The notes below the pieces were generated by a model that saw nothing but the letters and a program-made list of their open reading frames with translations, was not told the origin of the DNA and did no database searches. A stretch of 47,849 bases of DNA from IMG/VR virus record IMGVR_UViG_3300043467_000329, positions 1-47,849 of that record; one strand, 5' to 3'. Within the stretch, counting starts at the first letter, position 1; each line of letters begins with the position of its first letter. This DNA comes from a virus. This document shows, piece by piece, positions 4,720 to 47,849 of this stretch. The position numbers were made by a program, and so were the translations under genes.

Positions 4720-4742
4720 TTTTTTTTTTATTATTGTTTTAT

Positions 4743-4772: not shown

Positions 4773-4778
4773 GGTAGC

Positions 4779-4928: not shown

Positions 4929-4950
4929 ATTTAACAAGGAGATATTTGGC

Positions 4951-5354: not shown

Positions 5355-5359
5355 ATACG

Positions 5360-5752: not shown

Positions 5753-5782
5753 TTAATAAATCCAATGTAAATACAAAAGACC

Positions 5783-5840: not shown

Positions 5841-5859
5841 AAAAGGATATTATACTACT

Positions 5860-6369: not shown

Positions 6370-6379
6370 TTTTAAACTT

Positions 6380-6423
6380 GTTAGTAGCATAGGTAATCGG
6401 CTTATGCTATTAACATTTTTTTT
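6380..6423 (+). terminator. Strong intrinsic terminator, arm B
   Basis: GTTAGTAGCATA (6380-6391) pairs with TATGCTATTAAC (6403-6414), 12 bp with one wobble, then A and eight T. Identical at 44382-44425. Confidence 0.9.
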
Positions 6424-6425
6424 AT

Positions 6426-6515
6426 AAGGCGTAGGTTAGTACTGCACCCAAAGGCAGGCGTTACTGTGAATGCTTTGGGGTTGGGTCGGTTGGCCCTTTT
6501 CCAGCCGAAGGCTGG
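6426..6515 (+). other. Conserved element with competing hairpins after the terminator, arm B
   Basis: This element is strongly conserved with 44428-44517. CCCAAAG (6447-6453) pairs with CTTTGGG (6473-6479). Tandem GGTTGG boxes (6479-6484, 6488-6493) can pair with CCAGCC (6501-6506), which can instead close a hairpin with GGCTGG (6510-6515) over a GAA loop. The two folds exclude each other. It may be an RNA switch or a DNA signal such as an origin. Confidence 0.5.
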
Positions 6516-6524
6516 TTCTAGTAT

Positions 6525-6636
6525 AAATGCTTTCTAATGGTTCGGCGTCAACTTTTCTGAAAGTATTCTTAATTTGAATTATTGGTTTGTTTGTTGTCTT
6601 AGGTTTTTTTTTAAATGCTCTCTAATGGTTCGGCGT
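6525..6636 (+). repeat. Paired 24-bp direct repeats, arm B
   Basis: Copies at 6525-6548 and 6613-6636 (core TCTAATGGTTCGGCGT) differ at one base and start 88 bp apart. A run of T precedes the second copy. Arm A has two copies of a different repeat at the same place that shares AATGCT and GCGT. Confidence 0.75.
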
Positions 6637-6703
6637 GAAAATGTTTAGAATGTATCCTAATTGTAAAATTAATATTAAAGTAATAAAATTGGATTTATTG
6701 TTC

Positions 6704-6719
6704 TTTGCGGCGGCCAATC
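6704..6719 (+). repeat. Third GCGGCGGCC element, arm B
   Basis: TTTGCGGCGGCCAATC is identical to 5737-5752 and 43078-43093, here preceded by ATTG (6697-6700) that can pair with CAAT. No TATAAT box stands at the matching distance. Between it and the gene at 6790 I see only a weak TATAAT. Confidence 0.6.
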
Positions 6720-6789
6720 ACATTTAAAAGAATAGATTAGATTGTTACTTTCTGATATAATTGGTTACTATTACTTACAGGAGGATAAT

Positions 6790-6957
6790 ATGCCTAAAAA
6801 GAAGATTAAAGTTTGTGAGTCTTGCGGGAAACCAAAGGTAACTGAAGAGATGAACGCCTTTAAAGCAGTACAAGAAGTCATGCAGTATATTAGAATCAAT
6901 GACAACAGTCCATACATGGTAGAAGAACTGCCACTCTACGAAGGGAAGATAGCATGA
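6790..6957 (+). CDS. Small CxxC protein opening the late plus-strand operon, arm B
   Basis: A 55-residue protein with a Lys-rich start, a single zinc-knuckle-like CESCGKPK motif and a helical remainder (FKAVQEVMQYIRI). A GGAGG site precedes the ATG, which is chosen over an upstream in-frame start. The arm A homologue at 44726-44881 keeps CDSCGKPK and FKAVQEAMKYIRI. One CxxC pair alone would need dimerisation to bind zinc. The stop overlaps the next start (ATGA). Confidence 0.65.
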   Translation: MPKKKIKVCESCGKPKVTEEMNAFKAVQEVMQYIRINDNSPYMVEELPLYEGKIA

Positions 6958-7046
6958 GTTTAAATGAAGTCGTTACATGGTTAGATTTATTTATTTTATT
7001 TAATACTTATTTGTTTGTTAGAATTATAGGGATGTTATTATCATGA
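6954..7046 (+). CDS. 30-residue membrane peptide, arm B
   Basis: MSLNEVVTWLDLFILFNTY followed by LFVRIIGMLLS: nearly the whole peptide could be one transmembrane helix. It starts and ends in ATGA overlaps with its neighbours, which argues for real translation. A 37-residue membrane peptide of different sequence takes this place in arm A (44878-44991). Function unknown. Confidence 0.5.
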   Translation: MSLNEVVTWLDLFILFNTYLFVRIIGMLLS

Positions 7047-7138
7047 TTAATGAGATTGTATTTATGAGTGTTATGTTTGCGGCAATTGCAATAACTATTA
7101 AAGGTGTATGCGGGATTGCAGGGAAGTTAATTAAATGA
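7043..7138 (+). CDS. 31-residue conserved membrane peptide, arm B
   Basis: MINEIVFMSVMFAAIAITIK then GVCGIAGKLIK, a single hydrophobic helix with a basic end. The arm A copy (44981-45076) differs at three residues. Both use ATGA overlaps. Conservation of so short a frame while flanking genes differ supports it being real. Confidence 0.6.
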   Translation: MINEIVFMSVMFAAIAITIKGVCGIAGKLIK

Positions 7139-7779
7139 ACTATTTAAATTTAAATATACCTACGTTCCTTGCCTACCTTGACACAGGGTTCTTGTACAAC
7201 GAGGAACCTAACCATAAGAATGATGCAGTGCCAGTTGAAGTATTTAATTTTACTTCTATACCACAACGCTGTGGTTTGTTTAGCGTCATGACTGAGTGGG
7301 GAACACAGCACGCAAGAGTGCCTATCCATTACCTACGCGCAACACCAGATGCTACAACAGCTTACCCATTGGACTGGTTGCAGCTTTGGGATAACATGTC
7401 ATACTACGCAAGTGCCGGCATCTATGACTACCTGAAGAACAGAACAGCTATGATAATGTTAAAGGATAAGACCAGACACAAGGCTAAGTACATGTTTACT
7501 ATTGACTGGTGCCTTGGACCACAATACCATGCAGGATATGGTGAGATGGCAGCAGGACACAAGTGTGCACACGTCTTTGAGGGTGAAGGTGGACAGTTCT
7601 TCATGCAGCCAAACAACAGAGTGCTGTGGTTAGATGGTGGTGCATGGATTAGTAAAGAGTTAACCAAGCCAGACTGGAAAGTCTTTGGCTTAGAGTTTAG
7701 CTGTGAATCTACTGGCTCACGTTGGGTATCAGAATCAGATGAAGAATTATATTTTTACGACTTTAAGGAAAAGCCATGA
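7135..7779 (+). CDS. 214-aa hypothetical protein, arm B only
   Basis: A globular, tryptophan- and histidine-rich protein with no membrane segment. Clusters such as DWCLGPQYHAGYGEMAAGHKCAH and WLDGGAWISKEL might form a metal site, but I do not recognise the family. It is coupled by ATGA overlaps to the membrane peptide before it and the glycosyltransferase after it, which suggests a role in the same surface-modification operon. Arm A goes straight from the membrane peptide to the glycosyltransferase. Confidence 0.6.
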   Translation: MNYLNLNIPTFLAYLDTGFLYNEEPNHKNDAVPVEVFNFTSIPQRCGLFSVMTEWGTQHARVPIHYLRATPDATTAYPLDWLQLWDNMSYYASAGIYDYLKNRTAMIMLKDKTRHKAKYMFTIDWCLGPQYHAGYGEMAAGHKCAHVFEGEGGQFFMQPNNRVLWLDGGAWISKELTKPDWKVFGLEFSCESTGSRWVSESDEELYFYDFKEKP

Positions 7780-8894
7780 AAGTTGCAGTAGTCTCGATAG
7801 CTAAGAACGAAGAACAGTTTGTTAAACGATGGAAGGAATCTGCTCAAGATGCTGATGCATTATATATTCTTGATACTGGGAGCAGTGATAATACTGTTTC
7901 AATAGCTAAGGAGTTAGGAATCAATGTTCATGAAGCTGTTATTACACCTTGGCACTTTGCTAATGCTCGTAATCATCTTCTTGATTTATTGCCTGATGAT
8001 GTAGATTGGATTATTAACTTAGACCTTGATGAAGTTTTGGTTGATGGTTGGCGCGCCGAACTGGAAAAGGTTCCTAACGATGGGTCAATCACTAGACCAA
8101 GATACAACTACACATGGTCGTGGAATCCAGATGGCACACCTGGACTTCAATACAATGGTGATAAGATTGTTCGTAGACATAGTCACCGCTGGAAGGGTGC
8201 CTGCCATGAGGTTAATATAACCCAACCAGGCTATGAAGAAAACCAAATCTTTTGTGGTGTTAAAATAGAACAGTATGCTGACAACAGTAAGCCACGCAGT
8301 TCATACCTACCTTTGCTAGCATTAGACGTTGAAGAGGACCCGCACAACGACCGTAACCGTCACTACTATGCTCGAGAGTTGTTCTTTCATGGGCAGATAG
8401 AGGAATCAATCAAGCATTTCAAGCATCATATCACCATGCCTGAAGCTAAATGGGATGCCGAACGCGCATGGTCAATGAGATACCTAGCTAAGATGATACC
8501 AGCTGAGCGTGAAGCATGGTTGCTTAGAGCATGTGCTGAGTATCCTCATGGTCGTGAGCCTTGGTTTGATTTGTGTCAATACTATTATGAGAAACAGAAC
8601 TTTGCTGGTTCTTATTTTGCGGCCAACAAAGCATTAGATATTAAAGTAAAACAGGGATTATATCTTAATGAACCTGAACCATGGGGATGGAAACTACATG
8701 ATGCGTTCGCTGTAGCAGCTTATAATCTTAATCAAGACTTTTATGCTTATGTGCATGGATGTATTGCTTTAGATTTAAATCCAACTGATGCTCGATTACA
8801 GAAGAACGTTGAGTTTTATACTGAGCGTGTTCCAGAACAATATAGAGCAAACTACAAAGAGATAGCAAAAACTATGGTGTCTCATGCACACTGA
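7776..8894 (+). CDS. Family 2-type glycosyltransferase, arm B
   Basis: A 372-residue protein. The N-terminal GT-A fold shows VAVVSIAKNEE, YILDTGSSDNT and the metal-binding LDLDEVL near residue 88, as in GT2 enzymes. The C-terminal half is helical and TPR-like (ERAWSMRYLAKM..., ACAEYPHGREPW). It would transfer a sugar from a nucleotide donor to an unknown acceptor, perhaps host surface glycan or a virion protein. The arm A enzyme (45073-46794) is homologous over this length but has a second catalytic domain. The end overlaps the methyltransferase start by 11 nt. Confidence 0.85.
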   Translation: MKVAVVSIAKNEEQFVKRWKESAQDADALYILDTGSSDNTVSIAKELGINVHEAVITPWHFANARNHLLDLLPDDVDWIINLDLDEVLVDGWRAELEKVPNDGSITRPRYNYTWSWNPDGTPGLQYNGDKIVRRHSHRWKGACHEVNITQPGYEENQIFCGVKIEQYADNSKPRSSYLPLLALDVEEDPHNDRNRHYYARELFFHGQIEESIKHFKHHITMPEAKWDAERAWSMRYLAKMIPAEREAWLLRACAEYPHGREPWFDLCQYYYEKQNFAGSYFAANKALDIKVKQGLYLNEPEPWGWKLHDAFAVAAYNLNQDFYAYVHGCIALDLNPTDARLQKNVEFYTERVPEQYRANYKEIAKTMVSHAH

Positions 8895-9381
8895 AGCAAT
8901 GTTTCATATCTTTAAATCTTTCCACGATTGGAGAGATGGTAGAAGTCATTTAAGAGTATTAGATATTGGTTCACTTGATATCAATGGTAGTATGCGCCCC
9001 ATCTTCTATCCCTTTGCCGAGAAGTACATTGGCATAGATACACAAGATGGACCAGGTGTAGACATTGTGACGGATGCCACAGAATATCTTAGTCCAGGCT
9101 ATTTTGATGTCATCATATGTGCTGAGGTGTTTGAGCATACTCCTGATTGGAAAAAGATTATTAATAATTCTTATGTAAATTTAGTTGATGGCGGCATCTT
9201 TATCGCTACTATGGCAGGTGAGGGTAGATATCCACACTCGGCTATAGATGAGAACCCCATCAGAGAATGGGAACACTACTCAAACATAGGCTGGTGGGAA
9301 CTAGAGCAAGCCTTGAAAGCCTTTAAAACAAAGGAAGTTAATGTACTTGGCACCGATACACGATGCTATGCAGTAAAATAA
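8884..9381 (+). CDS. SAM-dependent methyltransferase, arm B
   Basis: A 165-residue class I methyltransferase with motif I VLDIGSLDINGS, an acidic residue after strand 2 (YIGIDTQDGPGVDIV) and CAEVFEHTP in the motif IV to post-motif region. TMAGEGRYPHS and a conserved WEHYSNIGWW follow. It is about two thirds identical by eye to 46787-47290. Always next to a glycosyltransferase, it probably methylates the same glycan or its precursor. Confidence 0.8.
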   Translation: MHTEAMFHIFKSFHDWRDGRSHLRVLDIGSLDINGSMRPIFYPFAEKYIGIDTQDGPGVDIVTDATEYLSPGYFDVIICAEVFEHTPDWKKIINNSYVNLVDGGIFIATMAGEGRYPHSAIDENPIREWEHYSNIGWWELEQALKAFKTKEVNVLGTDTRCYAVK

Positions 9382-9413
9382 TGTAAAGAAAATGCTATAT
9401 AGATAGGAAGATA

Positions 9414-9575
9414 ATGTATTATCAGAAATTAGAAGAAGTAGATAAAGAGCTAGAAGCAATAGAAGCTTGGCAACACGAGCAGTTAAAGAAGCTTTATGCT
9501 AAGACCGAAAAGAAAATAAAGAAAACAATGGCTAAGTTGGCCATCCATATACCCGAGGAGTTTAAAACAAAATGA
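9414..9575 (+). CDS. Small coiled-coil protein, arm B
   Basis: A 53-residue charged helix (YYQKLEEVDKELEAIEAW...KKLYAKTEKKIKKTMAKLA) ending IPEEFKTK. The arm A copy is at 47315-47482. ATGA overlap with the next gene. No function can be assigned. Confidence 0.6.
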   Translation: MYYQKLEEVDKELEAIEAWQHEQLKKLYAKTEKKIKKTMAKLAIHIPEEFKTK

Positions 9576-9823
9576 AACAAGTAAAAGCAAGTCACGTAGA
9601 TGCAGGTATCAAGGGATTGGCAGCTGGTGTAGTTAGCTATGCCGCTAACCAGTACGGTCTTAATGCAGAGTTAACAGCAGCAATTATTCCAGCAGTTGTT
9701 GTTGCCTTGTCTTGGGTATCAACCAAGGTAGGCGATAAGAACACAGCTTTGTTTGTAAAGTTTGCAACAGAAGCTCTAGCTAAAGCACCAGCCAAGAAGG
9801 CTGCCGCAAAGAAGAAGGCATGA
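9572..9823 (+). CDS. Holin-like small membrane protein, arm B only
   Basis: An 83-residue protein with two hydrophobic stretches (about residues 12-27 and 33-50, AIIPAVVVALSWVS) and a Lys/Ala-rich tail (APAKKAAAKKKA). This is the size, topology and basic tail of a small phage holin. Arm A lacks it: the coiled-coil gene there runs directly into the next gene. The core has another holin-like gene at 12956-13204. Coupled by ATGA on both sides. Confidence 0.5.
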   Translation: MKQVKASHVDAGIKGLAAGVVSYAANQYGLNAELTAAIIPAVVVALSWVSTKVGDKNTALFVKFATEALAKAPAKKAAAKKKA

Positions 9824-10068
9824 TGGATGATAAAGAAATAGCACTACGTTTGTTGCACTTAGTTGAAGAGAACTATGACATCGATGCTGTTGTTGTCGAC
9901 TACAAGAAGGCTTTAACTGCATTGACTGGCAACGTTGAGATTAAACAAGAAAGAGTTACAGGCGGACGTAAGATTCCTATTCTCTCGAATGATGAAATTC
10001 AAATAAGATTAAATGAGAAATTGCGTTCAGCTTCTGCTGTAACAACGAGTTCAGTAACGTCGTTCTAA
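9820..10068 (+). CDS. Conserved 82-aa phage protein, arm B
   Basis: Begins MMDDKEIALRLLHLVEENYD; helical N-terminus, then VDYKKALTALTGNV and GGRKIPILSNDEIQIRL. The arm A counterpart is 47469-47729. The final codons fall in the 127-bp joint repeat. It overlaps the next start as TAATG. Function unknown. Confidence 0.6.
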   Translation: MMDDKEIALRLLHLVEENYDIDAVVVDYKKALTALTGNVEIKQERVTGGRKIPILSNDEIQIRLNEKLRSASAVTTSSVTSF

Positions 10069-10188
10069 TGTTAAAGAAGTTAATTAATATAACAGCCAGC
10101 CTGTCATTTACTTTGGCAGGTATGGTTGTTGTATTCATTACACTTAGTGGGGATACAAGAAGAATAGCTTTGATTTCTTCGGTGTCGG
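10062..10188. repeat. 127-bp exact repeat, joint between arms and core
   Basis: Identical to the window's last 127 bases (47723-47849). The base before the repeat differs between copies, and the second copy is ended by the window itself. It marks where arms A and B both enter the shared core. Confidence 0.9.
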
Positions 10189-34113: not shown

Positions 34114-37439
<3,326 letters not shown>

Positions 37440-37451
37440 TATTACTCCTTG

Positions 37452-38315
37452 TTATTGACTTAAAACGCCTGAAGCAAATGTATGTTCAGCAACTTGCGTA
37501 TAATTTAAAGTAGATTTATACATAACTAATTCATCAAAAGTGCAGTTGTATGTTGGATTGTAAAGTGCACCATTTCCAGGTCCACCAAGAGGCCATGCAG
37601 CAAGTAATGAAATTTTATTTCTTCTACCCGAAGGACTTCCATCTGGCTGAGTCGGCCAATATTGTGGCCAAGTATAAGGAGCAAATGTTCTTTCTAATAC
37701 AACTGCACCATTAATATAAAGTCTAGACCTAGTTGATTGATAGGTATAAACAATATGGTACCATTTATTATAATCAATTGTTACACCAGTATCACCATCT
37801 ACTCCAATATCAAACAAGTTTCCAACCCATGCAGTTCCATAAAATTTACCACTAGTTTGAGTAATTAACATTCCCCAAGCCAATGCATTTGCGTCATATC
37901 TTCCATAAGTAAATGTACTTGTATTATCTTCAAATTTTATTATACATTCCATTGTAAATGCATTTGCATTATTAATATCTCTACCAAACACCTGTGATTC
38001 CAATGTGCTAGTTAAATTTACACAGTTGTTTTGATAGTCGCTTGGACCATTTGTCGTATATATTGCATAGTTACCAGAATAAGGAACAATTCCTGTTTCG
38101 CGCCAAGTTGCAACACCAGTGCCAGCATAAAAAGTAAAATACACTGATGGAGAACTAAAGCTTCCGTTTTGAACTAAATCAGGGTCTTGTGTTGGTGTGG
38201 TAACTGGGTCATTTGCTCTTACCCAAAGAAGTGGATTATCAGCAGCTACGGTAGTAAGCCAAGCTACTTCCAAACTTCTATTTGTAGAAGCAACGATTCC
38301 AGAAGTTGATGGCAT
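37452..38315 (-). CDS. LamG/concanavalin-like virion protein, arm A
   Basis: 287 residues. The central domain (FTMECIIKFEDNTSTFTYGRYD ... NKWYHIVYTYQSTRSRLYINGAVVLERTF) matches LamG-type jelly-roll carbohydrate-binding folds. Flanked by fibre genes with overlapping ends (TAATG), it is likely a glycan-binding tail component. Confidence 0.75.
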   Translation of the reverse strand: MPSTSGIVASTNRSLEVAWLTTVAADNPLLWVRANDPVTTPTQDPDLVQNGSFSSPSVYFTFYAGTGVATWRETGIVPYSGNYAIYTTNGPSDYQNNCVNLTSTLESQVFGRDINNANAFTMECIIKFEDNTSTFTYGRYDANALAWGMLITQTSGKFYGTAWVGNLFDIGVDGDTGVTIDYNKWYHIVYTYQSTRSRLYINGAVVLERTFAPYTWPQYWPTQPDGSPSGRRNKISLLAAWPLGGPGNGALYNPTYNCTFDELVMYKSTLNYTQVAEHTFASGVLSQ

Positions 38316-40279
38316 TAGATTGACAAGTCTCCAAGTAATAAGTAATTATTTGATGACAAGCACAGCAATGTAGCAACTGAGTATTGTGCGCGGAACTTAA
38401 GTCCTGGTGTTCCGTTAATCGTTACGCTCGATGCAGCAATTGTTACCTGACCAGCACCGAGTTGAGCAAAGTCAATTCGTTGTCCAGCAGCTAATGCAGT
38501 TGAAGTATTAACAGTAGCAGTTATTGATGCGGCATTTGATAGTGTTACTAATTTTCCAGCGTCACTATTTGCTACAGTATAAGTTGTTCCTGTTTGCGTG
38601 TTGATTGTTTGCGCGCTGTCCCATACGCCAGCTGCTCCAGTTGCTCCTGTTACTCCTTGTGAACCTGTTGGACCTGTGATTCCAGTAGGCCCTGTTGGAC
38701 CTGTAACTCCTTGTGGACCAGTAGGGCCTGTTATTGCAGGACCTGTATAACCAGTGTAACCAGTAAATCCAGTGTAGCCAGTGTAACCTGTCGGCCCAGT
38801 TGGACCAGTATATCCAGTTGGACCAGTAGGGCCTACGTTTGCTTGACCAAACTCAACCCACTGTGAACTAGTTCCATCATCATAATAAACAAAGCTTCTA
38901 CCAGTTGATGAATCGTACCAAGTTTCTCCATCTTGTGGAGTTGATGGTGGAGTATCTGAAACTACGAACATTCCCGTAGGACCAGTGTAACCTGTGTAAC
39001 CCGTGTAACCAGTGTAGCCAGTTGGTCCCGTATAACCTGTAGGACCAGTCGGTCCAGTTATAGCTGGGCCTGTATAACCTGTATAACCAGTTGGTCCCGT
39101 GTAACCTGTATACCCAGTAGGTCCAGTAATTGCTGGGCCTGTGTATCCAGTGTAACCCGTAGGTCCTGTATAGCCCGTTGGCCCTGTTGGTCCAGTTATA
39201 GCTGGGCCAGTAGGTCCAGTAAATCCAGTTGGTCCTGTTATGGCTGGGCCAGTGTAACCAGTTGGTCCCGTAATGGCTGGACCTGTTGGGCCCGTGTAAC
39301 CCGTAGGGCCAGTTACTCCAGGTCCTGTAGGACCAGTAATGGCTGGACCCGTAGGACCCGTAAATCCTGTCGGTCCTGTCACAGTTGATGCAGCACCTGT
39401 TGGGCCAGTAGGACCTGTCAAACCCGTTGGGCCTGTATATCCTGTTGGGCCTGTAACGCCAGGACCTGTAGGACCTGTAATTGCTGGTCCCGTATAACCC
39501 GTGTAACCAGTAGGTCCTGTGAATCCTGTATAACCCGTATATCCTGTAGGACCAGTAAAGCCTGTGTAACCAGTAGGACCTGTGTAACCAGTAGGGCCAG
39601 TAAAGCCTGTAGGACCTGTAATACCAGGACCAGTAAATCCAGTTGGGCCTGTGTAACCTGTTGGACCTGTAAAGCCAGTAGGTCCTAAGTTGGAGTTACC
39701 AAACTCAGCCCATTGAAGTCCATTAACATCTTGATAATTAAGATACGTTCTACCATTAGTTGAGTTGTACCAAACATCAGTTGCACCTGCACCTGTTGGT
39801 GCTGTTTCAGAAACAATAAACTGTCCAGCACCTGTTGCTCCTGTGGCACCAGTCGCGCCTGTAGGGCCTGTAGGGCCCGTAAAACCTGTGTAGCCCGTAT
39901 AGCCAGTCGGTCCTGTATATCCTGTGTACCCTGTAGGTCCTGTGTAGCCAGTGTAGCCTGTGTAGCCCGTATAGCCAGTCGGTCCTGTGAAACCAGTGTA
40001 CCCTGTAGGACCTGTGTAACCAGTATAGCCTGTGTAACCAGTTGGGCCTGTAGCACCCGTTGGACCCGTATTAACCCATGGTAGATTATTCCAGTTAGTA
40101 GTACCATCACCAATTTTAAATCCTGGACCAGGAGCTGTTGCTGTTGCAGGACCTGTCGCAGGAATGGTTTGTGGTGGGCCTGCATCAATGCATATACCCA
40201 TTTCGCCGGCCATTAAAATTGGATTGTAGTTGTACCAGTTAGCCTGGGTATCTCTACGCATTTGAACTAATACAGCCAT
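38315..40279 (-). CDS. GPTGYTG collagen-like tail fibre, arm A
   Basis: 654 residues. Mtd-like N-terminus ([23 protein letters not shown] ... [14 protein letters not shown]), then more than 350 residues of [10 protein letters not shown] repeats, interrupted by two related globular inserts ([21 protein letters not shown] and [21 protein letters not shown]). The C-terminal domain ([21 protein letters not shown] ... LLLGDLSI) is shared with the 21844-22536 protein. It corresponds in position and N-terminus to the giant arm B fibre. Confidence 0.8.
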
Positions 40280-40819
40280 TTAAAATCCTCTTCTCTTTAT
40301 AATATCTCTTCTCTGGTCAAGCACATATTGCGCTGGTGATGTTCCAGCTGCACCTTGACTTGCGTCAAAGGCCCCTACGGCTACTACACAAGAACCAGTC
40401 GCTGCTGCTGAGCTAACATTACTTGCTACTTTAGTATAAGTAAATGTAGTTGTGGTTGGTACTGTTGCTATTGTATAGGTTCCATCAAATGTATTATCAA
40501 TATTAGAAACATAAACGCTTTGTCCTACAGCGAATCCATGGGCAACTGGCGTTGTTAATGTGGCAATATTTGATGTCAATGCTTTATTAGAAACTGTAAC
40601 TCCTGCTGCCAGTGGTGTGGCATCTGGTGCAATGAGATAGTGGAATTGAATTGATAAAGCCGCGCCGCCATCAACAACTGTTTCATCTTGGTGGTCAACG
40701 AGCAATTGGTCCTGCTGATTCTGCAACTCTCTTTTAAGAGTATTCATCATACGGGAAATCAGTACGTTGCTGTTACCCTGAATAACATCATTACCTGGGG
40801 CGGTCCAGACTGCTCTCAC
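40280..40819 (-). CDS. Short fibre-proximal virion protein, arm A
   Basis: 179 residues, GTG start 2 nt after the terminase stop. N-terminus RAVWTAPGNDVIQGNSNVLI and C-terminus QYVLDQRRDIIKRRGF match arm B. A middle segment (about residues 75-140, with VAHGFAVGQSVYVSNI typical of phage beta domains) is missing there. Probably a virion assembly protein. Confidence 0.65.
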   Translation of the reverse strand: MRAVWTAPGNDVIQGNSNVLISRMMNTLKRELQNQQDQLLVDHQDETVVDGGAALSIQFHYLIAPDATPLAAGVTVSNKALTSNIATLTTPVAHGFAVGQSVYVSNIDNTFDGTYTIATVPTTTTFTYTKVASNVSSAAATGSCVVAVGAFDASQGAAGTSPAQYVLDQRRDIIKRRGF

Positions 40820-40821
40820 GT

Positions 40822-41280
40822 TTAATTACCAACCTTTTCAATTGACATCGTAGGAAGCACACTTACCTTCTTAGTCTGATTCTGACTTATTTCTAATATA
40901 GCTGCTTGCAATTCGGCATCGGTTAATTCTTTAACTGAAGTCTCAGTTTTAATATTAAGAGTCTGTGACTGCTGAATGTAACCAGTAGCCTTTAAATAAA
41001 GTTCGGCACTCTTGGTGTCACCCGAGATTCCTTTAATGTAAATTGCATCAAGCAACTTTTGAGTTCTTTCAGGGCTTTGGGACATTCCCTCGACGCCAAG
41101 TTTCCAACGCTCTATAAACTGTTTTTTCTTTTCCCAAGTGCCAAGTGTGTTAATATGGACTTCATGTTCTTCTGCCCAAGCCTTCTTCGTGCCAGGGGTT
41201 CTAGAGTCCTCAGGGGTCAGCAGCCAAGCAAGGTACGCCTCTTGTTCTTGTGAGAGGAATAATGATTCTGTTCTAGCCAC
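40822..41280 (-). CDS. Terminase small subunit-like HTH protein, arm A
   Basis: 152 residues, GTG start. It aligns throughout with 3604-4026, sharing TKKAWAEEHEVHINTLGTWE and SGDTKSAELYLKATG but differing elsewhere. It has an extra 12-residue tail. See the arm B entry for the family. Packaging specificity may differ between the two genomes. Confidence 0.65.
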   Translation of the reverse strand: MARTESLFLSQEQEAYLAWLLTPEDSRTPGTKKAWAEEHEVHINTLGTWEKKKQFIERWKLGVEGMSQSPERTQKLLDAIYIKGISGDTKSAELYLKATGYIQQSQTLNIKTETSVKELTDAELQAAILEISQNQTKKVSVLPTMSIEKVGN

Positions 41281-41406
41281 GTGGAGAAACCCTTCTAATA
41301 AATTGTATCTTCCTATTATACATAAAAAATTTTACATTTGGCACTGTTACATTAAGGTTAACAAAAGGTTAACAGTAGATGAATTGTAAGAAATATTGGA
41401 AAAAAC
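41281..41406. promoter_or_regulatory. Divergent control region, arm A
   Basis: GGTTAACA occurs at 41356-41363 and 41367-41374, 11 bp apart, one helical turn, and may be an operator. On the minus strand a TATAAT (about 41319-41324) could serve the terminase gene. The sequence is unlike the arm B region, which has the GTGATATATCAC palindrome instead, so the regulators may differ. Confidence 0.4.
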
Positions 41407-41436
41407 TTGTTAATCCTGCTCTCGGCATGGTACTAT
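41407..41436 (+). promoter_or_regulatory. Extended -10 promoter for the OB-fold gene, arm A
   Basis: TTGTTA, 18 nt, TACTAT with TG upstream, as in arm B. The 41439-41564 leader keeps GGTTACT, the GTTACTAGTAAC palindrome and AGTAACC. Confidence 0.65.
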
Positions 41437-41564
41437 ATGGTTACTCGGGTTATTGAGCAATAGGAAACATGAATAACAGAACAAATATTAAAAGGTTGGT
41501 TATTCAAGGTAACTGTTACTAGTAACCACATACAAGTAACCATTATAATCGAAGGAGATTAAAA

Positions 41565-41990
41565 ATGCAAACATTCACAGGAACAATAGCCAAGGTGCCA
41601 ACGGTCGGCGCAAAACAAATAACCTCAGCAATTAAAATAACAGAAGATAGTAAGCCAATACAGATAGTAGCTTTTAAGAACTATTGCCCAGCTCAAGTAA
41701 CCACAGCATTAACCAGTATTAAAATTGGTGATACCTTTTGCTTCATTGGGAGACAGAAGAAGAACCCTTCCACAGGTCAACAGGAAATTGTAATAGAGAA
41801 GCTTGTAGAAACAAAGGATTTAAAATATGCCATTGACCCTAACCTTGATTTTATTATAGGTGGTCTGTCTTCCTTTAATAACAAGCCAATCAGCATATCA
41901 GAACCGCGCGAAGGATGTAAGCAATATTATACAGATGGTGACTTTTATTGGTATGAAGGTCATAAAGAAAAGTGCCCAACAAGTTTCTAA
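41565..41990 (+). CDS. OB-fold-like, possibly ssDNA-binding protein, arm A
   Basis: 141 residues, only three substitutions from 4294-4719. Here it is followed by a second gene rather than by RNA-A directly. Such near identity between otherwise divergent arms points to strong constraint or recent recombination. Confidence 0.55.
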   Translation: MQTFTGTIAKVPTVGAKQITSAIKITEDSKPIQIVAFKNYCPAQVTTALTSIKIGDTFCFIGRQKKNPSTGQQEIVIEKLVETKDLKYAIDPNLDFIIGGLSSFNNKPISISEPREGCKQYYTDGDFYWYEGHKEKCPTSF

Positions 41991-42019
41991 ATAAACAAAC
42001 AAACAGGAGAATAATAATA

Positions 42020-42211
42020 ATGTCAAATCCAGCAACAGAAAAACAACTAGCCCTTATTGCCAAGCATAACATGCCTGTGCATTCAGATACCTTAACAGTA
42101 AAAGAGGCATCTGCAATCATAGACACCTTTGCCAAGGCAAATGGATGGGCGCAGAAAGAATTCACGCCGAAGGCTAAAGCAGAACCTACACCAATGCCAG
42201 ACAGCTTTTAA
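42020..42211 (+). CDS. ATEKQ-type small domain protein, arm A only
   Basis: 63 residues from the ATG after a GGAG site: ATEKQLALIAKHNMPVHSDT then LTVKEASAIIDTFAKANGW. This short helical module often forms the C-terminal end of phage recombination, helicase or ssDNA-binding proteins. As a separate gene right after the OB-fold protein it may act with it. A longer frame from a GTG at 41972 lies within the previous gene and is not preferred. Confidence 0.6.
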   Translation: MSNPATEKQLALIAKHNMPVHSDTLTVKEASAIIDTFAKANGWAQKEFTPKAKAEPTPMPDSF

Positions 42212-42225
42212 TTTTTTTTTATTAT

Positions 42226-42255
42226 TTGCATAGGACAATATTGGTGTGATATGAT
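42226..42255 (+). promoter_or_regulatory. Promoter of RNA-A, arm A
   Basis: TTGCAT, 18-nt spacer, TATGAT. It sits just after a run of ten T following the ATEKQ gene. Confidence 0.65.
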
Positions 42256-42261
42256 ATAAGC

Positions 42262-42408
42262 CTCTTAGGAAAGCCCTGAGAGACCTTAGGAAGGATTCTA
42301 GGGTTACATAATCAGTGATGATGAACTAATAGTAACTTACTAGGTTGGGGACAACTTAGAGCTTTCGTAGGGAAAGGGCCAGGGATTAACTTCTCTGGTC
42401 TTTTTCTT
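42262..42408 (+). ncRNA. RNA-A: six-hairpin small RNA, arm A
   Basis: Same six hairpins as in arm B: 42262-42282; 42284-42303 (AGGA loop instead of GAGA, with one A-T pair changed to G-T); the GTTAC/GTAAC pair; 42340-42359; CTTTC/GAAAG; and the terminator stem. Changes from arm B sit in loops or keep pairing. No small gene follows here. Confidence 0.7.
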
Positions 42409-42410
42409 TT
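42377..42410 (+). terminator. Intrinsic terminator of RNA-A, arm A
   Basis: GGCCAGGG (42377-42384) with CTCTGGTC (42393-42400), then TTTTTCTTTT. Confidence 0.8.
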
Positions 42411-42652
42411 ATATGCCTGAATGTATTTGGCATTGTTAATATTAAAGATAGACCGGTACTTAACAAAACAAGGGGTGGGGGTTTAGGAATATATACGCTT
42501 GTCCCTACATAGTTCGGTACCCTCATACGAAGGGGTAGTACGGGGGGTGGGTGTGGGGGTGCCTGGGTGTGGACTCAGGAACTCTGTACTTGTACTTGAC
42601 ATAATCAAAACCTTTCCTTGATGATGGTGTGACACAAGACACATAACATAAC
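42411..42652 (+). other. Gene-free conserved block, arm A
   Basis: Counterpart of 5074-5324. GTCCCTACATAGT from 42501, a TACCC/GGGTA pairing, GGGGGG and GCCTGGGTGT are kept. The remainder is different. No coding frame is supported. Confidence 0.4.
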
Positions 42653-42682
42653 TTGACACACACCTCAGTAGTATTATATACT
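42653..42682 (+). promoter_or_regulatory. Promoter of RNA-B, arm A
   Basis: TTGACA (consensus -35), 18-nt spacer, TATACT. Predicted start near 42688, the first base of stem 1. Confidence 0.7.
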
Positions 42683-42687
42683 TTACA

Positions 42688-42805
42688 TGTACTAGCAAGG
42701 GAGTAAACGGGGGGCTGAGCTTCCTTACTAGTACAATACGATATCATAGCTAAGCCATAAAGCCTAGGATTGTTCTGAGTCTTACCAGGATGGTCCTAGG
42801 CTTCT
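42688..42805 (+). ncRNA. RNA-B: two-stem RNA with conserved G6 loop, arm A
   Basis: Stem 1 pairs TGTACTAGCAAGGGAG (42688-42703) with CTTCCTTACTAGTACA (42720-42735), one C-A mismatch, around a 16-nt loop with GGGGGGCT. Stem 2 pairs 42761-42777 with 42786-42802, 17 bp including wobbles, 8-nt loop. The linker TAGCTAAGCCATAA is shared. Compared with arm B, at least four pairs in stem 2 change on both sides (for example A-T to G-C, C-G to T-A). Confidence 0.7.
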
Positions 42806-43054
42806 CCTTTGTGTAGGGCAATAGCCGGCTATCAGGATAAGTGATGGATGATACGTGAACTATCTCAGATAAAGATACCTCTAAACCCCTTATGTTATAT
42901 GCCCTATTATAATAGCAGTAGTGTTCTATCTCTTATTTAGATACAAAGACCTGGATTTATCAGTGTTTGTGATGGTTGTATACAAGTACGCTCACTTGTC
43001 TACCTCAGCACAGCATTGTATTAGTACTCTCTCTATCTTATGTATTATCATAAA
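42806..43054 (+). other. Gene-free stretch with conserved 40-nt block, arm A
   Basis: Shares GTGTTCTATCTCTTAT...AGATACAAAGACCTGGAT (about 42922-42955) with arm B. A TATTATAAT lies just upstream (about 42904-42912). Otherwise unlike arm B, and I see no gene. Confidence 0.35.
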
Positions 43055-43093
43055 TATAATATTAAATGATTGTTTGTTTTGCGGCGGCCAATC
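43055..43093 (+). promoter_or_regulatory. TATAAT box with GCGGCGGCC start-site hairpin, arm A
   Basis: TATAAT (43055-43060), 7 nt, then the 26-nt element 43068-43093 (GATTG...CAATC, core TTTGCGGCGGCC), identical in sequence and spacing to arm B. It precedes the two inserted genes. Confidence 0.45.
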
Positions 43094-43137
43094 CTTAAAA
43101 GTTCATGCAGAATTCAAAACATCACAAGGAGAACAGC

Positions 43138-43602
43138 ATGGCTAAAGCGACTGAATATGATAGCATAATAGAACATCTAGCTTATATTAAAGCTTATACT
43201 GATGTTGATAGACCTTTAGCCAATGGTAGATGTTTTGATAATTGTTTTTATGCGGGATTTCATAATATTATTAGTCCTAAGACTTGGCGTTACACAGAGG
43301 GCGTTGCTATAGGTCGTGAAGGATTACTTTATTATCATGCTTGGCTTACAAGTCGTCAAGGCAAGATATGGGATATTACTTGGCCTAAATTAGATTGTAA
43401 CGTATATTATCCACGATATATCTTTGATGTAGATAAAGCGTTTGAACTAGCTCATGATGGTTTACAAAAACCATTCACAAGATACATCTATAAAGGATAC
43501 ACTAATCTTAAAGATGCAATCATTGAAGAAGGTGTAGAACATCCTGACTTCGATTATTCGCAGTGGTCTACAATGGGTCAAACTTTAATTCAACAATCCT
43601 AA
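43138..43602 (+). CDS. Papain/transglutaminase-like protein, arm A only
   Basis: 154 residues from the ATG after AAGGAG. The order GRCFDNCFYAG (Cys), YTEGVAIGREGLLYYHAWL (His) and KIWDITWP (Asp) fits a papain-like Cys-His-Asp triad as in small transglutaminase- or NlpC-like hydrolases of phages and bacteria. The substrate is unknown. Possible roles are host protein or wall modification, or defence and counter-defence. Together with the next gene it is inserted between two elements that are contiguous in arm B. Confidence 0.6.
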   Translation: MAKATEYDSIIEHLAYIKAYTDVDRPLANGRCFDNCFYAGFHNIISPKTWRYTEGVAIGREGLLYYHAWLTSRQGKIWDITWPKLDCNVYYPRYIFDVDKAFELAHDGLQKPFTRYIYKGYTNLKDAIIEEGVEHPDFDYSQWSTMGQTLIQQS

Positions 43603-43629
43603 TGTAAATACAAAAGTCGGGAGGATAAA

Positions 43630-43848
43630 ATGAATATAACAAAAGAGCAAGAAGTTATGAGAAATGAGTTTACTGTTTTACAAATGGATTTTGCACAAAT
43701 GGACGAACGTTTTGAATTTTTACGTGCTAAAGCAATTAGTCTTAAAGATTGGAAGTTTGTGGAAATTATTGAGCGATACTGGCCACCATTCTATTTAAAT
43801 CCAATATTACAGTTACCAATGCAAATACAAAAGACCGAGGACATCTGA
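43630..43848 (+). CDS. Hypothetical 72-aa helical protein, arm A only
   Basis: MNITKEQEVMRNEFTVLQMD then FAQMDERFEFLRAKAISLKDW...; a GGGAGG site precedes the ATG. The upstream motif AATGTAAATACAAAAG is repeated (as CAATGCAAATACAAAAG) inside its own 3' end. Its last codons (GAG GAC ATC TGA) form the 5' arm of the downstream pseudoknot, so ribosomes finishing this gene would open that structure. Confidence 0.6.
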   Translation: MNITKEQEVMRNEFTVLQMDFAQMDERFEFLRAKAISLKDWKFVEIIERYWPPFYLNPILQLPMQIQKTEDI

Positions 43849-43899
43849 GCTTCACGACTGTGTGCTTGGATGTCCTCATTAAACACAGTCAACACAGTC
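43837..43899 (+). ncRNA. H-type pseudoknot upstream of the membrane protein, arm A
   Basis: Stem 1: GAGGACATC (43837-43845) with GATGTCCTC (43869-43877). In the 23-nt loop GACTGTGT (43856-43863) is complementary to ACACAGTC, which occurs twice downstream (43883-43890, 43892-43899). Same topology and place as 5783-5840 with unrelated sequence. Confidence 0.6.
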
Positions 43900-43920
43900 A
43901 CTTAAGGATATTATATTACT

Positions 43921-44373
43921 ATGGAAACACCAGAAATCAACACAGGACTGCTTCCCCAAGAAGTCCGAGTCATCAAAGAAGAGAAGCCTAAGAGAACAAT
44001 GCCAAGTATTCCATTTGGTATTATCTTGATTATTGCAGCTATTATTGGTAGTGCTCTTTATCTTAAGAGTTCTATTAATAGTAATACTGATACCAATAGC
44101 AATGTTCTTCTTGGCGCGATTTCCAATGTTGATGTCAATGTTCAAGCCGGCAATGCTGATATTATTACTGGACTTGATGGTATTCAAGCTGGAATTGGTG
44201 AGATTAAAGATTCAGTTGCTAAAATCCCGACCAAACCAGTAGTTATTACTAAAGCTCCTACTATCAGTAAGCAGCAGAAGTATAACAATTGTGTTAAGTG
44301 GGTCAATGGCTCAGGTTTAGATGCAGCGAATGCTAAAATGTATCTCAATGCTTGCCTGAACTGGCTCAAGTAA
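43921..44373 (+). CDS. Modular membrane-anchored protein, arm A version
   Basis: 150 residues. A Pro/Glu-rich cytoplasmic N-terminus, one transmembrane helix (FGIILIIAAIIGSALYL, about residues 37-54), then the same C-terminal domain as 5860-6369 (NADIITGLDGIQAGIGEIKD ... YNNCVKWV ... YLNACLNWLK). N-terminus and helix are replaced. Part of the shared region is nearly identical at DNA level, as expected for recombination at a domain border. Confidence 0.7.
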   Translation: METPEINTGLLPQEVRVIKEEKPKRTMPSIPFGIILIIAAIIGSALYLKSSINSNTDTNSNVLLGAISNVDVNVQAGNADIITGLDGIQAGIGEIKDSVAKIPTKPVVITKAPTISKQQKYNNCVKWVNGSGLDAANAKMYLNACLNWLK

Positions 44374-44381
44374 TTTAATTT

Positions 44382-44425
44382 GTTAGTAGCATAGGTAATC
44401 GGCTTATGCTATTAACATTTTTTTT
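44382..44425 (+). terminator. Strong intrinsic terminator, arm A
   Basis: 12-bp stem 44382-44393 with 44405-44416, then A and eight T. Identical to arm B. Confidence 0.9.
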
Positions 44426-44427
44426 AT

Positions 44428-44517
44428 AAGGCGTAGGTTAGTACTACACCCAAAGGCAGGCGTTAATGTGTTTGCTTTTGGGTTGGGTCGGTTGGCCCTT
44501 TTCCAGCCGAAGGCTGG
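44428..44517 (+). other. Conserved element with competing hairpins, arm A
   Basis: Counterpart of 6426-6515. Tandem GGTTGG (44481-44486, 44490-44495) can pair with CCAGCC (44503-44508), which can instead pair with GGCTGG (44512-44517). The CCCAAAG arm now faces CTTTTGGG. Confidence 0.5.
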
Positions 44518-44524
44518 CTTGTAA

Positions 44525-44620
44525 ACAATGCTACGAAACCGTTTGCGTTTCAAATTGGAATTCAAATCTGGTTTGGAAATAAGTTTTTTATTTTACAATG
44601 CTACGAAACCGTTTGCGTTT
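44525..44620 (+). repeat. Paired 26-bp direct repeats, arm A
   Basis: Exact copies at 44525-44550 and 44595-44620 (core CGAAACCGTTTGCGTTT), 70 bp apart, each followed by ATTCAAAT. A short hairpin and T-run lie between them. Same place as the different pair in arm B. Confidence 0.8.
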
Positions 44621-44725
44621 GAAAGTTAAATTCAAATATAGATTTATAATATTCAATATAAAGAGTCTAAACAAATATTGTGGTAAAATGGATTAGCTCA
44701 TTACTATTGTATACAGGAGGATAAT

Positions 44726-44881
44726 ATGAAGAAAAATAAGATTAAAGATAAAGAAGTTTGTGATTCTTGCGGCAAACCGAAAATGGATGAAGCTATGAAT
44801 CACTTTAAAGCAGTGCAAGAAGCAATGAAGTATATTAGAATTAAAGATAATAACTTTGACTTGGAGGAGTTACCATTATGA
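44726..44881 (+). CDS. Small CxxC protein opening the operon, arm A
   Basis: 51 residues: Lys-rich start, VCDSCGKPK, FKAVQEAMKYIRIKDN. GGAGG before the ATG. A TAAAAT preceded by TGG (about 44681-44689) may be an extended -10. Homologue of 6790-6957. ATGA overlap. Confidence 0.65.
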   Translation: MKKNKIKDKEVCDSCGKPKMDEAMNHFKAVQEAMKYIRIKDNNFDLEELPL

Positions 44882-44991
44882 ATGAAACGATTACATATGC
44901 AGGAGTTCTCTGGCTTATTGGTGGCTGGACTATAGGTAGGATTATAGCCATATTGCTTATTGATAGATTGGATAGACGTAATGATAAATGA
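44878..44991 (+). CDS. 37-residue membrane peptide, arm A
   Basis: MNETITYAGVLWLIGGWTIG then RIIAILLIDRLDRRNDK: one helix with a basic end. It replaces the unrelated 30-residue membrane peptide of arm B. ATG overlaps the previous stop. Confidence 0.5.
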   Translation: MNETITYAGVLWLIGGWTIGRIIAILLIDRLDRRNDK

Positions 44992-45076
44992 GATTGTATT
45001 TATGACTGTTATGTTTGCGGCAATTGCAATAACTATTAAAGGTTTGTGCGGGATTGCAGGGAGACTTATTAAATGA
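44981..45076 (+). CDS. 31-residue conserved membrane peptide, arm A
   Basis: MINEIVFMTVMFAAIAITIK then GLCGIAGRLIK, three substitutions from 7043-7138. It overlaps both neighbours. Confidence 0.6.
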   Translation: MINEIVFMTVMFAAIAITIKGLCGIAGRLIK

Positions 45077-46794
45077 AGGTTGTTGTAGCCAGCATTGCTT
45101 TAAATGAAGAGAAGCATGTAAGACGTTGGGCTGAGTCAGCTAAGGGTGCAGATTACATCTACCTCCTGGACACTGGCTCAACTGATGACACCATCAAGAT
45201 AGCTAAAGAGTGTGGTGTGACTGTCATTGAACACAAGATTGTACCTTGGCACTTTGGTAATGCTCGTAACTATTTACTTGAGCGTCTTCCTGAGGATGCT
45301 GATTGGGTTATTAACTTAGACCTTGATGAAGTTCTTATTGATGGTTGGCGCGGCCATTTGGAATCTGTTCCAGCCGGCATTACCCGTCCTCGTTACCAAT
45401 ACACTTGGAACTGGGAAGCAGATGGTAAGCCTGGATTGCAATACCATGGTGATAAGATTGTTGTGCGTCATGGATACAAGTGGCACAATGCTGTACATGA
45501 AATCATGCATGAGATTGCACCATTGGTAGAAACCCAATCCTTTATGGGCTTAGAGATACATCACCATGCTGACAACACCAAGTCACGTGGTTCATACCTA
45601 CCTTTATTATTATTAGATGTTGAAGAGAATCCTGATAATGACCGTAATGTTTATTATGCTGCTCGAGAGCTGATGTACTATGGCCGTGTTGAAGAGTCAG
45701 TAGCTATGTTCAAGCGTCACTTGACAATGCCTAGTTCTATCTGGCCACCAGAGAGAGCATTCTCGATGCGTTATATAGCCAAGCAAACACCAGGTGAACG
45801 TGAACACTGGTTACTACGTGGTTGTGCAGAATATCCATCGGGTAGAGAGTTATGGGTTGACTTAGCTAATCACTATCATGATACTGGTAATTGGTTAGGT
45901 TGTTACTTTGCGGCCAAACGAGCATTGTCTTTGACTGACCGTGGTTCACTGTACCTAACTGAGGCTGTGATGTGGGGATGGATGCCTCATGACCTGGCTG
46001 CTCTATCTGCATACCATCTAGGATTAAATGATGAAGCTATTGCTCAAGGTAAGCTTGCATGTGAGATTGCTCCTGATGATGTTAGATTGAAGAGTAATTT
46101 ATTATTTTATTCTTTGCGCGAATCAAAAATCAATGTAGTCATACCAACCAAGACAAACATCGGTGGCTTGACCAAGCTCGTAGGCCAGTTGCTAGCTGAC
46201 ACCATGGTGAATAAGATTATCATTGTTGCAGATGGCAATGAAGCTTATGATAATTTAAATGCAATACCAAAGTTCAACAAAGTAATTAAAGTTATGGTCA
46301 ACGAAGGTGTTGGCATCCATGCTATGTGGAACTTAGGCATGAACATCGCAGGTTATGACGGGCACATTGCATTCATCAATGATGATGTGTCATTAGAGAA
46401 AGACTGCATGTTTGAATTGGGCGGCCAACTGTCAAAGAATTATGACTATGGTTTAATCTGTCCAAGTTACTCGACAACTAAACCAACAGAGGATAGAGTT
46501 GTCACTGACACTTGCCGTAGTAGATACGATGGTACTGGTGGCATGGCTGGCTTCTTCATGGTATTGAATAAAGAATTGGTGCCACGCTTCCGCTTTGATG
46601 AAGACATGAAGTGGTGGTATGGTGATGATGAGATAGTTGATTGGGTCACTAAGCAAAACCGTAAGTGCGTTGTTAGTGCGGCGACCAGTTGTACACATGA
46701 TGACTCTAAAACTATAAAGACCAATCCACCAAAGGACTTTGCTGCAATCGTAGCAAATGACAAGAAAATATACGAAGGAAAGAAGAATGCATAA
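45073..46794 (+). CDS. Two-domain glycosyltransferase, arm A
   Basis: 573 residues. Residues 1-350 match the arm B enzyme (VVVASIALNEE, LDTGSTDDT, LDLDEVL, TPR-like half). Residues about 357-560 add a second GT-A domain: INVVIPTKTNIGGL, FINDDVSLEKDCMFE (metal-binding NDD) and WWYGDDEIVDWV. So one protein could add two sugars, or the second domain could change specificity. It overlaps the methyltransferase by 8 nt. Confidence 0.85.
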   Translation: MKVVVASIALNEEKHVRRWAESAKGADYIYLLDTGSTDDTIKIAKECGVTVIEHKIVPWHFGNARNYLLERLPEDADWVINLDLDEVLIDGWRGHLESVPAGITRPRYQYTWNWEADGKPGLQYHGDKIVVRHGYKWHNAVHEIMHEIAPLVETQSFMGLEIHHHADNTKSRGSYLPLLLLDVEENPDNDRNVYYAARELMYYGRVEESVAMFKRHLTMPSSIWPPERAFSMRYIAKQTPGEREHWLLRGCAEYPSGRELWVDLANHYHDTGNWLGCYFAAKRALSLTDRGSLYLTEAVMWGWMPHDLAALSAYHLGLNDEAIAQGKLACEIAPDDVRLKSNLLFYSLRESKINVVIPTKTNIGGLTKLVGQLLADTMVNKIIIVADGNEAYDNLNAIPKFNKVIKVMVNEGVGIHAMWNLGMNIAGYDGHIAFINDDVSLEKDCMFELGGQLSKNYDYGLICPSYSTTKPTEDRVVTDTCRSRYDGTGGMAGFFMVLNKELVPRFRFDEDMKWWYGDDEIVDWVTKQNRKCVVSAATSCTHDDSKTIKTNPPKDFAAIVANDKKIYEGKKNA

Positions 46795-47290
46795 TGCAGC
46801 CATGGAGTTTATATTTACTAGCTTTCATAATTGGAAAGATGATAGAACTGATTTAAATATATTAGAGATTGGTTCACTTGATATTAATGGTGGTATACGA
46901 CCAATGTTTAAACCATTCCAAGGTAATTACATTGGGGTAGATATGCAGGAAGGACCAGGTGTAGACATTGTTGCAGATGCTGCTAAGTTTATTAACTTTG
47001 AAGCTTATGATGTCATTGTTTGCGCCGAAGTCTTTGAGCATACGCCTTACTGGCCACAAATCATTCAAAATAGTTATAATAATTTAGTTACTGGTGGCTT
47101 GTTTATCGCTACTATGGCAGGAGAGGGTAGATATCCTCACTCAGCCATTGATGAGAAACCAATCAGAGACTGGGAACACTATTCAAATATAGGATGGTGG
47201 GAATTAAAGCAAACCCTTAATAAATATGGATTTGAGAATGTAGATGTAAATGTATTGGGACAAGATACCCGTTGTTGGGCCGTAAAATAA
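46787..47290 (+). CDS. SAM-dependent methyltransferase, arm A
   Basis: 167 residues from the ATG (MHNAAMEFIF) that aligns with the arm B start (MHTEAMFHIF). An ATG 30 nt earlier lies in the glycosyltransferase. ILEIGSLDINGG, YIGVDMQEGPGVDIV and CAEVFEHTP are present. Confidence 0.8.
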   Translation: MHNAAMEFIFTSFHNWKDDRTDLNILEIGSLDINGGIRPMFKPFQGNYIGVDMQEGPGVDIVADAAKFINFEAYDVIVCAEVFEHTPYWPQIIQNSYNNLVTGGLFIATMAGEGRYPHSAIDEKPIRDWEHYSNIGWWELKQTLNKYGFENVDVNVLGQDTRCWAVK

Positions 47291-47314
47291 TTGACTATAG
47301 ATAAGGAAGTTCAT

Positions 47315-47482
47315 ATGTATTATGAAAAATTAGAAGAAGTAGACAAAGAACTAGAACAAATAGAAGCTTGGCAACAAGAACAATTAAAGAAACTGTATGC
47401 TAAGACTGCAAAGAAAATAGCTAAAACTATGGCTAAGTTGGCCATTTATATACCCGAGGAGGTAAAACGTGGACACAAATGA
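47315..47482 (+). CDS. Small coiled-coil protein, arm A
   Basis: 55 residues from the ATG aligned with arm B (MYYEKLEEVDKELEQIEAW). An earlier TTG at 47291 is not supported. The end differs (EEVKRGHK) because the gene runs directly into the next one. Confidence 0.6.
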   Translation: MYYEKLEEVDKELEQIEAWQQEQLKKLYAKTAKKIAKTMAKLAIYIPEEVKRGHK

Positions 47483-47729
47483 ACTAATCATAGAGATGTT
47501 AAAGTTAGCTGAAGACAACTATCCACTCGATGATGTAATTGCTGACTACAAGAAAGCTTACAGTGCTGTTAAAGGTGATGTAGTTATTGAATCAAAAGGC
47601 ACAGTGCTTGGCAAAACAGGTGGACGCAATGTTCCAATTGTTAAACATCACGATATTAAATCAAGACTTACCGAAAGCATAGCTGCTCAATCAGGCAGTG
47701 CAGTAACATCTAACTTAGTGCAGTTCTAA
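47469..47729 (+). CDS. Conserved 86-aa phage protein, arm A
   Basis: GTG start inside the previous gene (MDTNELIIEMLKLAEDNYPL). Homologue of 9820-10068, sharing DYKKA, TGGR and the AVTS-near C-terminus. The holin-like gene that separates the two in arm B is absent. Confidence 0.6.
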   Translation: MDTNELIIEMLKLAEDNYPLDDVIADYKKAYSAVKGDVVIESKGTVLGKTGGRNVPIVKHHDIKSRLTESIAAQSGSAVTSNLVQF

Positions 47730-47849
47730 TGTTAAAGAAGTTAATTAATATAACAGCCAGCCTGTCATTTACTTTGGCAGGTATGGTTGTTGTATTCATT
47801 ACACTTAGTGGGGATACAAGAAGAATAGCTTTGATTTCTTCGGTGTCGG
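47723..47849. repeat. 127-bp exact repeat, right edge
   Basis: Identical to 10062-10188. The window stops exactly at the end of the match. Confidence 0.9.
47729..47849 (+). CDS. Small membrane protein, truncated by the window edge
   Basis: First 40 codons of the protein fully present at 10068-10238, identical in sequence. Confidence 0.6.
   Translation, partial: MLKKLINITASLSFTLAGMVVVFITLSGDTRRIALISSVS

Follow-up and report, generated by a model that had tools for sequence, protein, structure and literature searches.

A strain-specific accessory-gene insertion in an uncultivated podovirus-like phage encodes a predicted papain-like protein

In an uncultivated podovirus-like phage, represented by IMG/VR record IMGVR_UViG_3300043467_000329, two small genes occupy a variable locus. 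The window analyzed here is that whole contig of 47,849 b (record class linear), and it contains sequence of two related phage strains, strain B at positions 1 to 10188 (arm B) and strain A, which includes positions 35340 to 47849 (arm A). We show that positions 43094 to 43817 are a strain-specific accessory-gene insertion. As in moron-type loci, the extra genes are found in one phage and are absent or replaced at the same site in close relatives. We think it probable that the insertion carries a papain-like enzyme that acts on a host or defense protein and that genes in this slot are swapped at borders marked by a leader sequence.

RESULTS

The slot is polymorphic among closely related phages. 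In strain B, the GCGGCGGCC element passes to the leader AATGTAAATACAAAAG within 15 nt with no open reading frame (ORF) between them (the empty site, 5740 to 5779, + strand), whereas the same site in arm A holds two ORFs, at 43138 to 43602 (154 amino acids [aa]) and at 43630 to 43848 (72 aa). We surveyed 24 records recruited through a conserved 63-aa neighbor gene. After GCGGCGGCCAATC, the 154-aa papain-like gene and the 72-aa ORF were found only in strain A, that is, in the window and in two further IMG/VR records, and when all fetched relatives were searched with a profile, the papain-like gene did not turn up again. The slot was empty in strain B, L100/L339, L105, and L330. The GCGGCGGCC (or GCGGCGAATTGG) element is followed by AATGTAAATACAAAAG, a candidate pseudoknot, and a membrane-protein gene in strain B, L105, and L100, and L330 (G027) keeps both element and leader ahead of another small ORF (76 aa). 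Depending on the record, the element is otherwise followed by the membrane protein, a 244-aa protein (L343 to L346), ORFs of 127 and 48 aa (L331), or an ORF of 43 aa (L342), and HNH genes, a PF23452-type glycosyltransferase gene, and others vary near the slot. The G+C contents of the cargo genes are 0.34 and 0.32, and that of the genome is 0.40. An earlier note on this DNA, made from the sequence alone, had described the two extra genes and the direct passage in arm B and had proposed an accessory-gene slot. Both points are borne out: the two genes are missing or replaced in all of the relatives that were read, and therefore we conclude that the slot is an accessory-gene locus. Such an exchangeable slot also offers a ready-made catalog of phage genes that may act against the host.

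The contig itself is a chimera. Positions 10062 to 10188 are repeated exactly, over 127 nt, at positions 47723 to 47849, the end of the window (no strand is assigned to either copy). Arm A was matched by two other IMG/VR contigs at 99.3% and 99.96%, and both continue into position 10062 onward at 99.6 to 100%; thus, the genome of strain A is circular, with a length of 37,661 b, and closes onto position 10062. Arm B was matched by contigs G006 and G007 at 98.7 to 99.98% to just past position 10188, beyond which identity falls, and the G006/G007 core is 70 to 84% identical to strain A. From the contig matches and the shared 127-mer, it follows that the window is a complete strain A genome preceded by an arm of strain B, two related phages misjoined via the exact match. 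The value 127 is a common largest k among metagenome assemblers. The two arms are collinear but belong to different phages and are only about 74 to 96% identical outside the 127-mer, and we therefore rejected duplication and a terminal repeat of the T5 type as their origin. Features present twice in the window are thus alleles of two strains rather than duplications. The earlier note had treated the arms as one genome, a view contradicted by the repeat and the contig matches, and since the arms come from two phages, the slot comparison spans two phages and the polymorphism is more meaningful, not less. The record also serves as a warning that "two arms" in such contigs may be two strains. A chimeric contig might suggest that the insert is itself an assembly artifact, but the insert sits well within arm A (3.9 kb in), and the two further strain A records contain it with the same flanks and zero mismatches. 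We therefore give that explanation almost no credence.

How the cargo entered the slot is suggested by its borders. On the left, the element TTGTTTGTTTTGCGGCGGCCAATC (43070 to 43093, + strand) is kept in relatives directly before differing cargo. On the right, a 16-nt leader occurs exactly three times in the window (5764, 43601, and 43818), where 0.01 copies were expected, and two of the copies flank the 72-aa ORF (ORF2) 217 nt apart. The first (AATGTAAATACAAAAG, 43601 to 43616, + strand) lies directly before the ribosome-binding site (RBS) of ORF2 and supplies the start of that site, and the second (AATGCAAATACAAAAG, 43818 to 43833, + strand) lies inside the 3' end of ORF2 and forms the right border of the slot. 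We infer that exchange by recombination at the shared borders is the simplest account; the leader at both ends of ORF2 would be a shared 5' untranslated-region border at which genes are swapped. The earlier note had listed both the leader and CAATCCT as border repeats. The leader holds up, but CAATCCT, present at 43089 and 43594, has six + strand occurrences across the window and is therefore weak as a border repeat. The same note had described GCGGCGGCC as a hairpin, for which support was weak in arm B (z = -1.47); a stable hairpin in arm A was not supported (z = -0.12 and 0.28). Transposon insertion was also rejected, as the two slot borders have no terminal inverted repeats, and general protein-family searches of the ORFs in the insert found no transposase. 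Besides the copy at 5740, the GCGGCGGCCAATC element occurs at 6707 before a small zinc-ribbon-like gene of strain B, which suggests that several cargo genes may reuse this element as a leader or border.

The first cargo gene (43138 to 43602, + strand; Shine-Dalgarno [SD] sequence AGGAGA) encodes the 154-aa protein, with Cys32, His67, and Asp79 as predicted catalytic residues. The protein matched no Pfam family above the cut-off and nothing in PHROGs or NCBIfam, and a sequence search of the PDB returned nothing convincing. The sole Pfam row at an E of ≤1, PF22343 (E = 7e-4, below the cut-off), and a fibronectin-binding protein in the PDB (E = 0.056) were judged to be chance matches. Moreover, tblastn of the cargo against 50,697 phages gave no credible match, and a scan of bacterial genomes with exact peptides gave none. 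Relatives came instead from a motif scan, in which a DNA pattern for H-A-W...G...D.T-W was run over 2.9 million viral contigs. The scan returned 82 stretches, most of them ORFs that also had upstream C..N and Y.EG.A, neither of which was in the scan pattern, and about 70 phage ORFs shared C..N, Y.EG.A, HAW, and G...D.TW. In an alignment of 63 sequences, C32, N35, E54, G55, H67, A68, W69, G75, D79, T81, and W82 were invariant; because the scan and the selection required HAW, G, D.TW, and C..[NSCT], this invariance is partly built in, while E54-G55 was in neither the scan pattern nor the selection. Against a profile from which it had been left out, the window protein scored 49.7 bits and, after masking of the scanned motif, 15.1 bits, compared to a maximum of 5.8 among shuffled sequences (663 of 1,000 shuffles reported). 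By sequence, therefore, cargo gene 1 belongs to an unnamed family of phages and plasmids with an invariant, putatively catalytic Cys-His-Asp triad.

Structure prediction agrees with a papain-like protein. AlphaFold2 gave a predicted local distance difference test score of 36.7 without the family alignment, a single-sequence model that was discarded, and of 71.6 with it, reaching about 90 over residues 31 to 105. In the model, C32 stands at the start of a helix (residues 32 to 41) and H67 lies in the second strand (residues 64 to 72). Foldseek against BFVD retrieved uncharacterized phage proteins (E = 5e-5, probability 1.00), as well as proteins of Vibrio phage JA-1 and Erwinia phage S6. Among solved structures, the named matches were mostly papain-fold enzymes, headed by the N-terminal glutamine amidohydrolase NTAQ1 (Z = 5.2 to 6.1; for the best, root mean square deviation of 3.3 over 103 aligned residues) and followed by LapG (Z = 3.7 to 4.2), PeiW/PeiP (3.5 to 3.7), a putative cysteine protease, TglA, and staphopain, with all scores below 8, where a VIA-align Z can reflect a common arrangement. 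Together with the triad, found in 63 of 63 aligned sequences under a selection that partly imposed it, the predicted fold suggests a probable papain/transglutaminase-type core. The papain-like reading of the earlier note is thus supported, and the predicted fold has a putative catalytic site of the kind that it had looked for.

The likeness extends to the papain-like cysteine peptidase superfamily as a whole (Pfam clan CL0125, with transglutaminase-like, NTAQ1, and LapG members) in the order Cys-His-Asp, the predicted fold, and the placement of Cys at a helix start with His in the strand region after it. The HAW...D.T pattern is as in transglutaminase cores. Unlike clan members, the 154-aa protein is very small, matches no clan profile above the cut-off, and has its own invariants N35, Y.EG.A, and D.TW. 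One specific alternative is that the protein is an NTAQ1-like amidohydrolase that alters host or phage proteins at an N-terminal glutamine, either feeding N-degron turnover or blocking it. NTAQ1 entries make up the top 14 of the structural list, and in both proteins the aligned range starts about 10 to 11 residues ahead of the catalytic cysteine. Set against this, the Z scores of NTAQ1 are below 8, other papain-fold enzymes come next at Z of 3 to 4, the Pfam scan (E ≤ 1) gave no match to an NTAQ1 profile, and the likeness to NTAQ1 is one of overall structure, with E54-G55 and D.TW as invariants of the phage and plasmid family. We consider that specific activity unlikely.

The family is frequent outside the slot. 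By tblastn, it was found on 46 plasmids (of Streptomyces, Nostoc, Rhizobium, and others), as a "hypothetical protein" where annotated; a single phage record, GX15bay, also matched. The papain-like domain lies in 13 listed open frames that exceed 330 aa, several of which exceed 700 aa. In large phage proteins of 836 to 1,304 aa (L246, 7556 to 10495; L247, 3 to 3818; L277, 2080 to 4587; L294, 3768 to 7421; L304, 2943 to 6824; L269, 5956 to 9867), the domain is either fused to Phage_Mu_F (L246, L247, and L294), zeta toxin (L246), or topoisomerase IB (L247 and L277) or set apart by repeated linkers of the CPTGKGGG or GGRWSETG type. We regard it as quite unlikely that the protein is a cell-wall endopeptidase or another enzyme of lysis or entry: its 154 aa show neither an evident signal peptide nor an evident wall-binding domain, its gene is surrounded by RNA elements and short variable genes and is oriented opposite to the tail and head genes, and some relatives are fused to domains of intracellular type (topoisomerase and zeta toxin).

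DISCUSSION

What the papain-like protein does is suggested by the company that it keeps. The best reading is a stand-alone papain-like effector, directed at the host or at its defenses. An anti-host or anti-defense role, which the earlier note had raised, is plausible by association with slot mates, plasmid relatives, and fused relatives. One slot mate is the 244-aa phage protein, which has the R-S-EQE pattern typical of ADP-ribosyltransferases and matches PHROGs 4776 and 25265 (unknown function); this predicted ADP-ribosyltransferase lies in or near the slot in L100 (5941 to 6675), L343 (2883 to 3617), L344 (8376 to 9110), and L326 (1277 to 2011). The occurrence of one family in phages and plasmids, alone or inside giant multitool proteins, likewise suggests a weapon against the host cell. 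The protein would work as a thiol hydrolase or transferase inside the cytoplasm of the infected host, with Cys32 as the nucleophile, perhaps as a protease, a Gln/Asn deamidase, or a transglutaminase, with NTAQ1-like N-terminal deamidation as one specific option. The substrate would be a host or defense protein, and the advantage might arise only on some hosts, which would explain the patchy presence of the gene.

Several observations weigh against an effector carried as exchangeable cargo. No sigma-70-like promoter match was found directly before the slot, and the papain-like protein had no match in an anti-defense database. The C-terminal 50 residues are poorly modeled, Foldseek found no match in the PDB at an E of ≤0.001, and to these are added the low structural scores and the partly built-in invariance noted above. 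Finally, the cargo is known from one strain, in identical copies, and selection on it is therefore not measurable.

Comparison with known systems places the slot among exchangeable loci. Accessory-gene hotspots occur in phages, such as those of P2 and P4 (PMC9122126), and anti-defense genes of archaeal viruses are marked by shared regulatory sequences (PMC11065993). The slot resembles both in that conserved borders enclose exchangeable cargo in near relatives and one leader stands before different genes (ORF2, the 76-aa ORF of L330, and the membrane-protein gene). It differs in that no known defense or anti-defense gene was recognized in it and no promoter match lies directly before it. The fused relatives recall polyvalent proteins, a class described from phages and conjugative elements and predicted to accompany the DNA into the cell (Iyer et al. 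2017, PMC5512222). The main text of that paper names four peptidase superfamilies (zincin, assemblin, DD, and LonC) and never mentions papain or transglutaminase. Like polyvalent proteins, the family is common to phages and plasmids, and L246, L247, and L277 are multidomain, whereas the window protein stands alone as a single domain of 154 aa. We tentatively speculate, at a strength short of an even chance, that one papain-fold effector family has three lifestyles (phage-slot gene, plasmid gene, and virion-linked polyvalent domain), disables host or defense proteins by cleavage or deamidation, and is swapped with an ADP-ribosyltransferase in the slot. A frequent enzyme family of phages and plasmids, matched by no profile of four protein-family libraries, is now visible together with its predicted active site, which one point mutant, C32A, could probe.

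The second cargo gene (43630 to 43848, + strand; SD sequence GGGAGG) was seen only in the strain A records, and protein-family and tblastn searches found no relatives. Two small adjacent genes that enter together, the second with its own strong RBS, could be a self-maintaining toxin-antitoxin or effector-immunity pair. ORF2 is without relatives, however, no recurrent partner gene surrounds the roughly 74 phage members of the gene 1 family, and the leader repeats suggest that the two genes may have entered separately, such that we find a pair improbable. ORF2 runs into a candidate H-type pseudoknot (43837 to 43899, + strand), which precedes the membrane-protein gene and its RBS and in which stem 1 pairs 43837 to 43845 with 43869 to 43877 and stem 2 pairs 43856 to 43863 with 43883 to 43890 (or 43892 to 43899). 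Its counterpart in arm B is at 5783 to 5845, and both helices differ in sequence between the strains and keep their pairing. In shuffle tests of stem 2, 37 of 5,000 shuffles were as good as the 8 bp of strain A, and 310 of 5,000 were as good as the 6 bp of strain B. The pseudoknot described in the earlier note is thus plausible and may be a translational regulator of the membrane-protein gene. The ORF2 stop codon (43846 to 43848) falls inside the first helix and loop, and ribosomes on ORF2 would therefore disturb the structure, which may couple ORF2 translation to the pseudoknot.

The membrane-protein gene itself (43921 to 44373, + strand; arm B relative, 5860 to 6369) flanks the slot and is not cargo; it encodes a predicted membrane protein of 150 aa and is followed by a terminator at 44381 to 44417. 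In the variable region of L100, positions 3379 to 4197 encode a 272-aa protein that matches PF23452, a family of hydroxyproline O-arabinosyltransferases (E = 4e-6, above the cut-off), which is unusual for a phage. Upstream of the slot, positions 42252 to 42415 (arm B, approximately 4765 to 4930) form a conserved structured RNA of about 160 nt with an intrinsic terminator (fold z = -3.9). Double, compensatory changes occur at 14 of its 33 pairs among 11 variants, and Rfam gave no match at an E of ≤1, making it a candidate new phage small RNA. A second small-RNA-like unit at 42653 to 42803 has a promoter match (TTGACA-18-TATACT, 11 of 12 positions), a hairpin around the conserved CGGGGGGCT, and a terminator at 42760 to 42803, and its stem sequence differs in arm B. 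Elsewhere in both strains, at approximately 1300 to 3200 and 35800 to 40200, long collagen-like 9-nt periodic repeats (GPV/GPT type, - strand) lie in predicted tail or structural genes.
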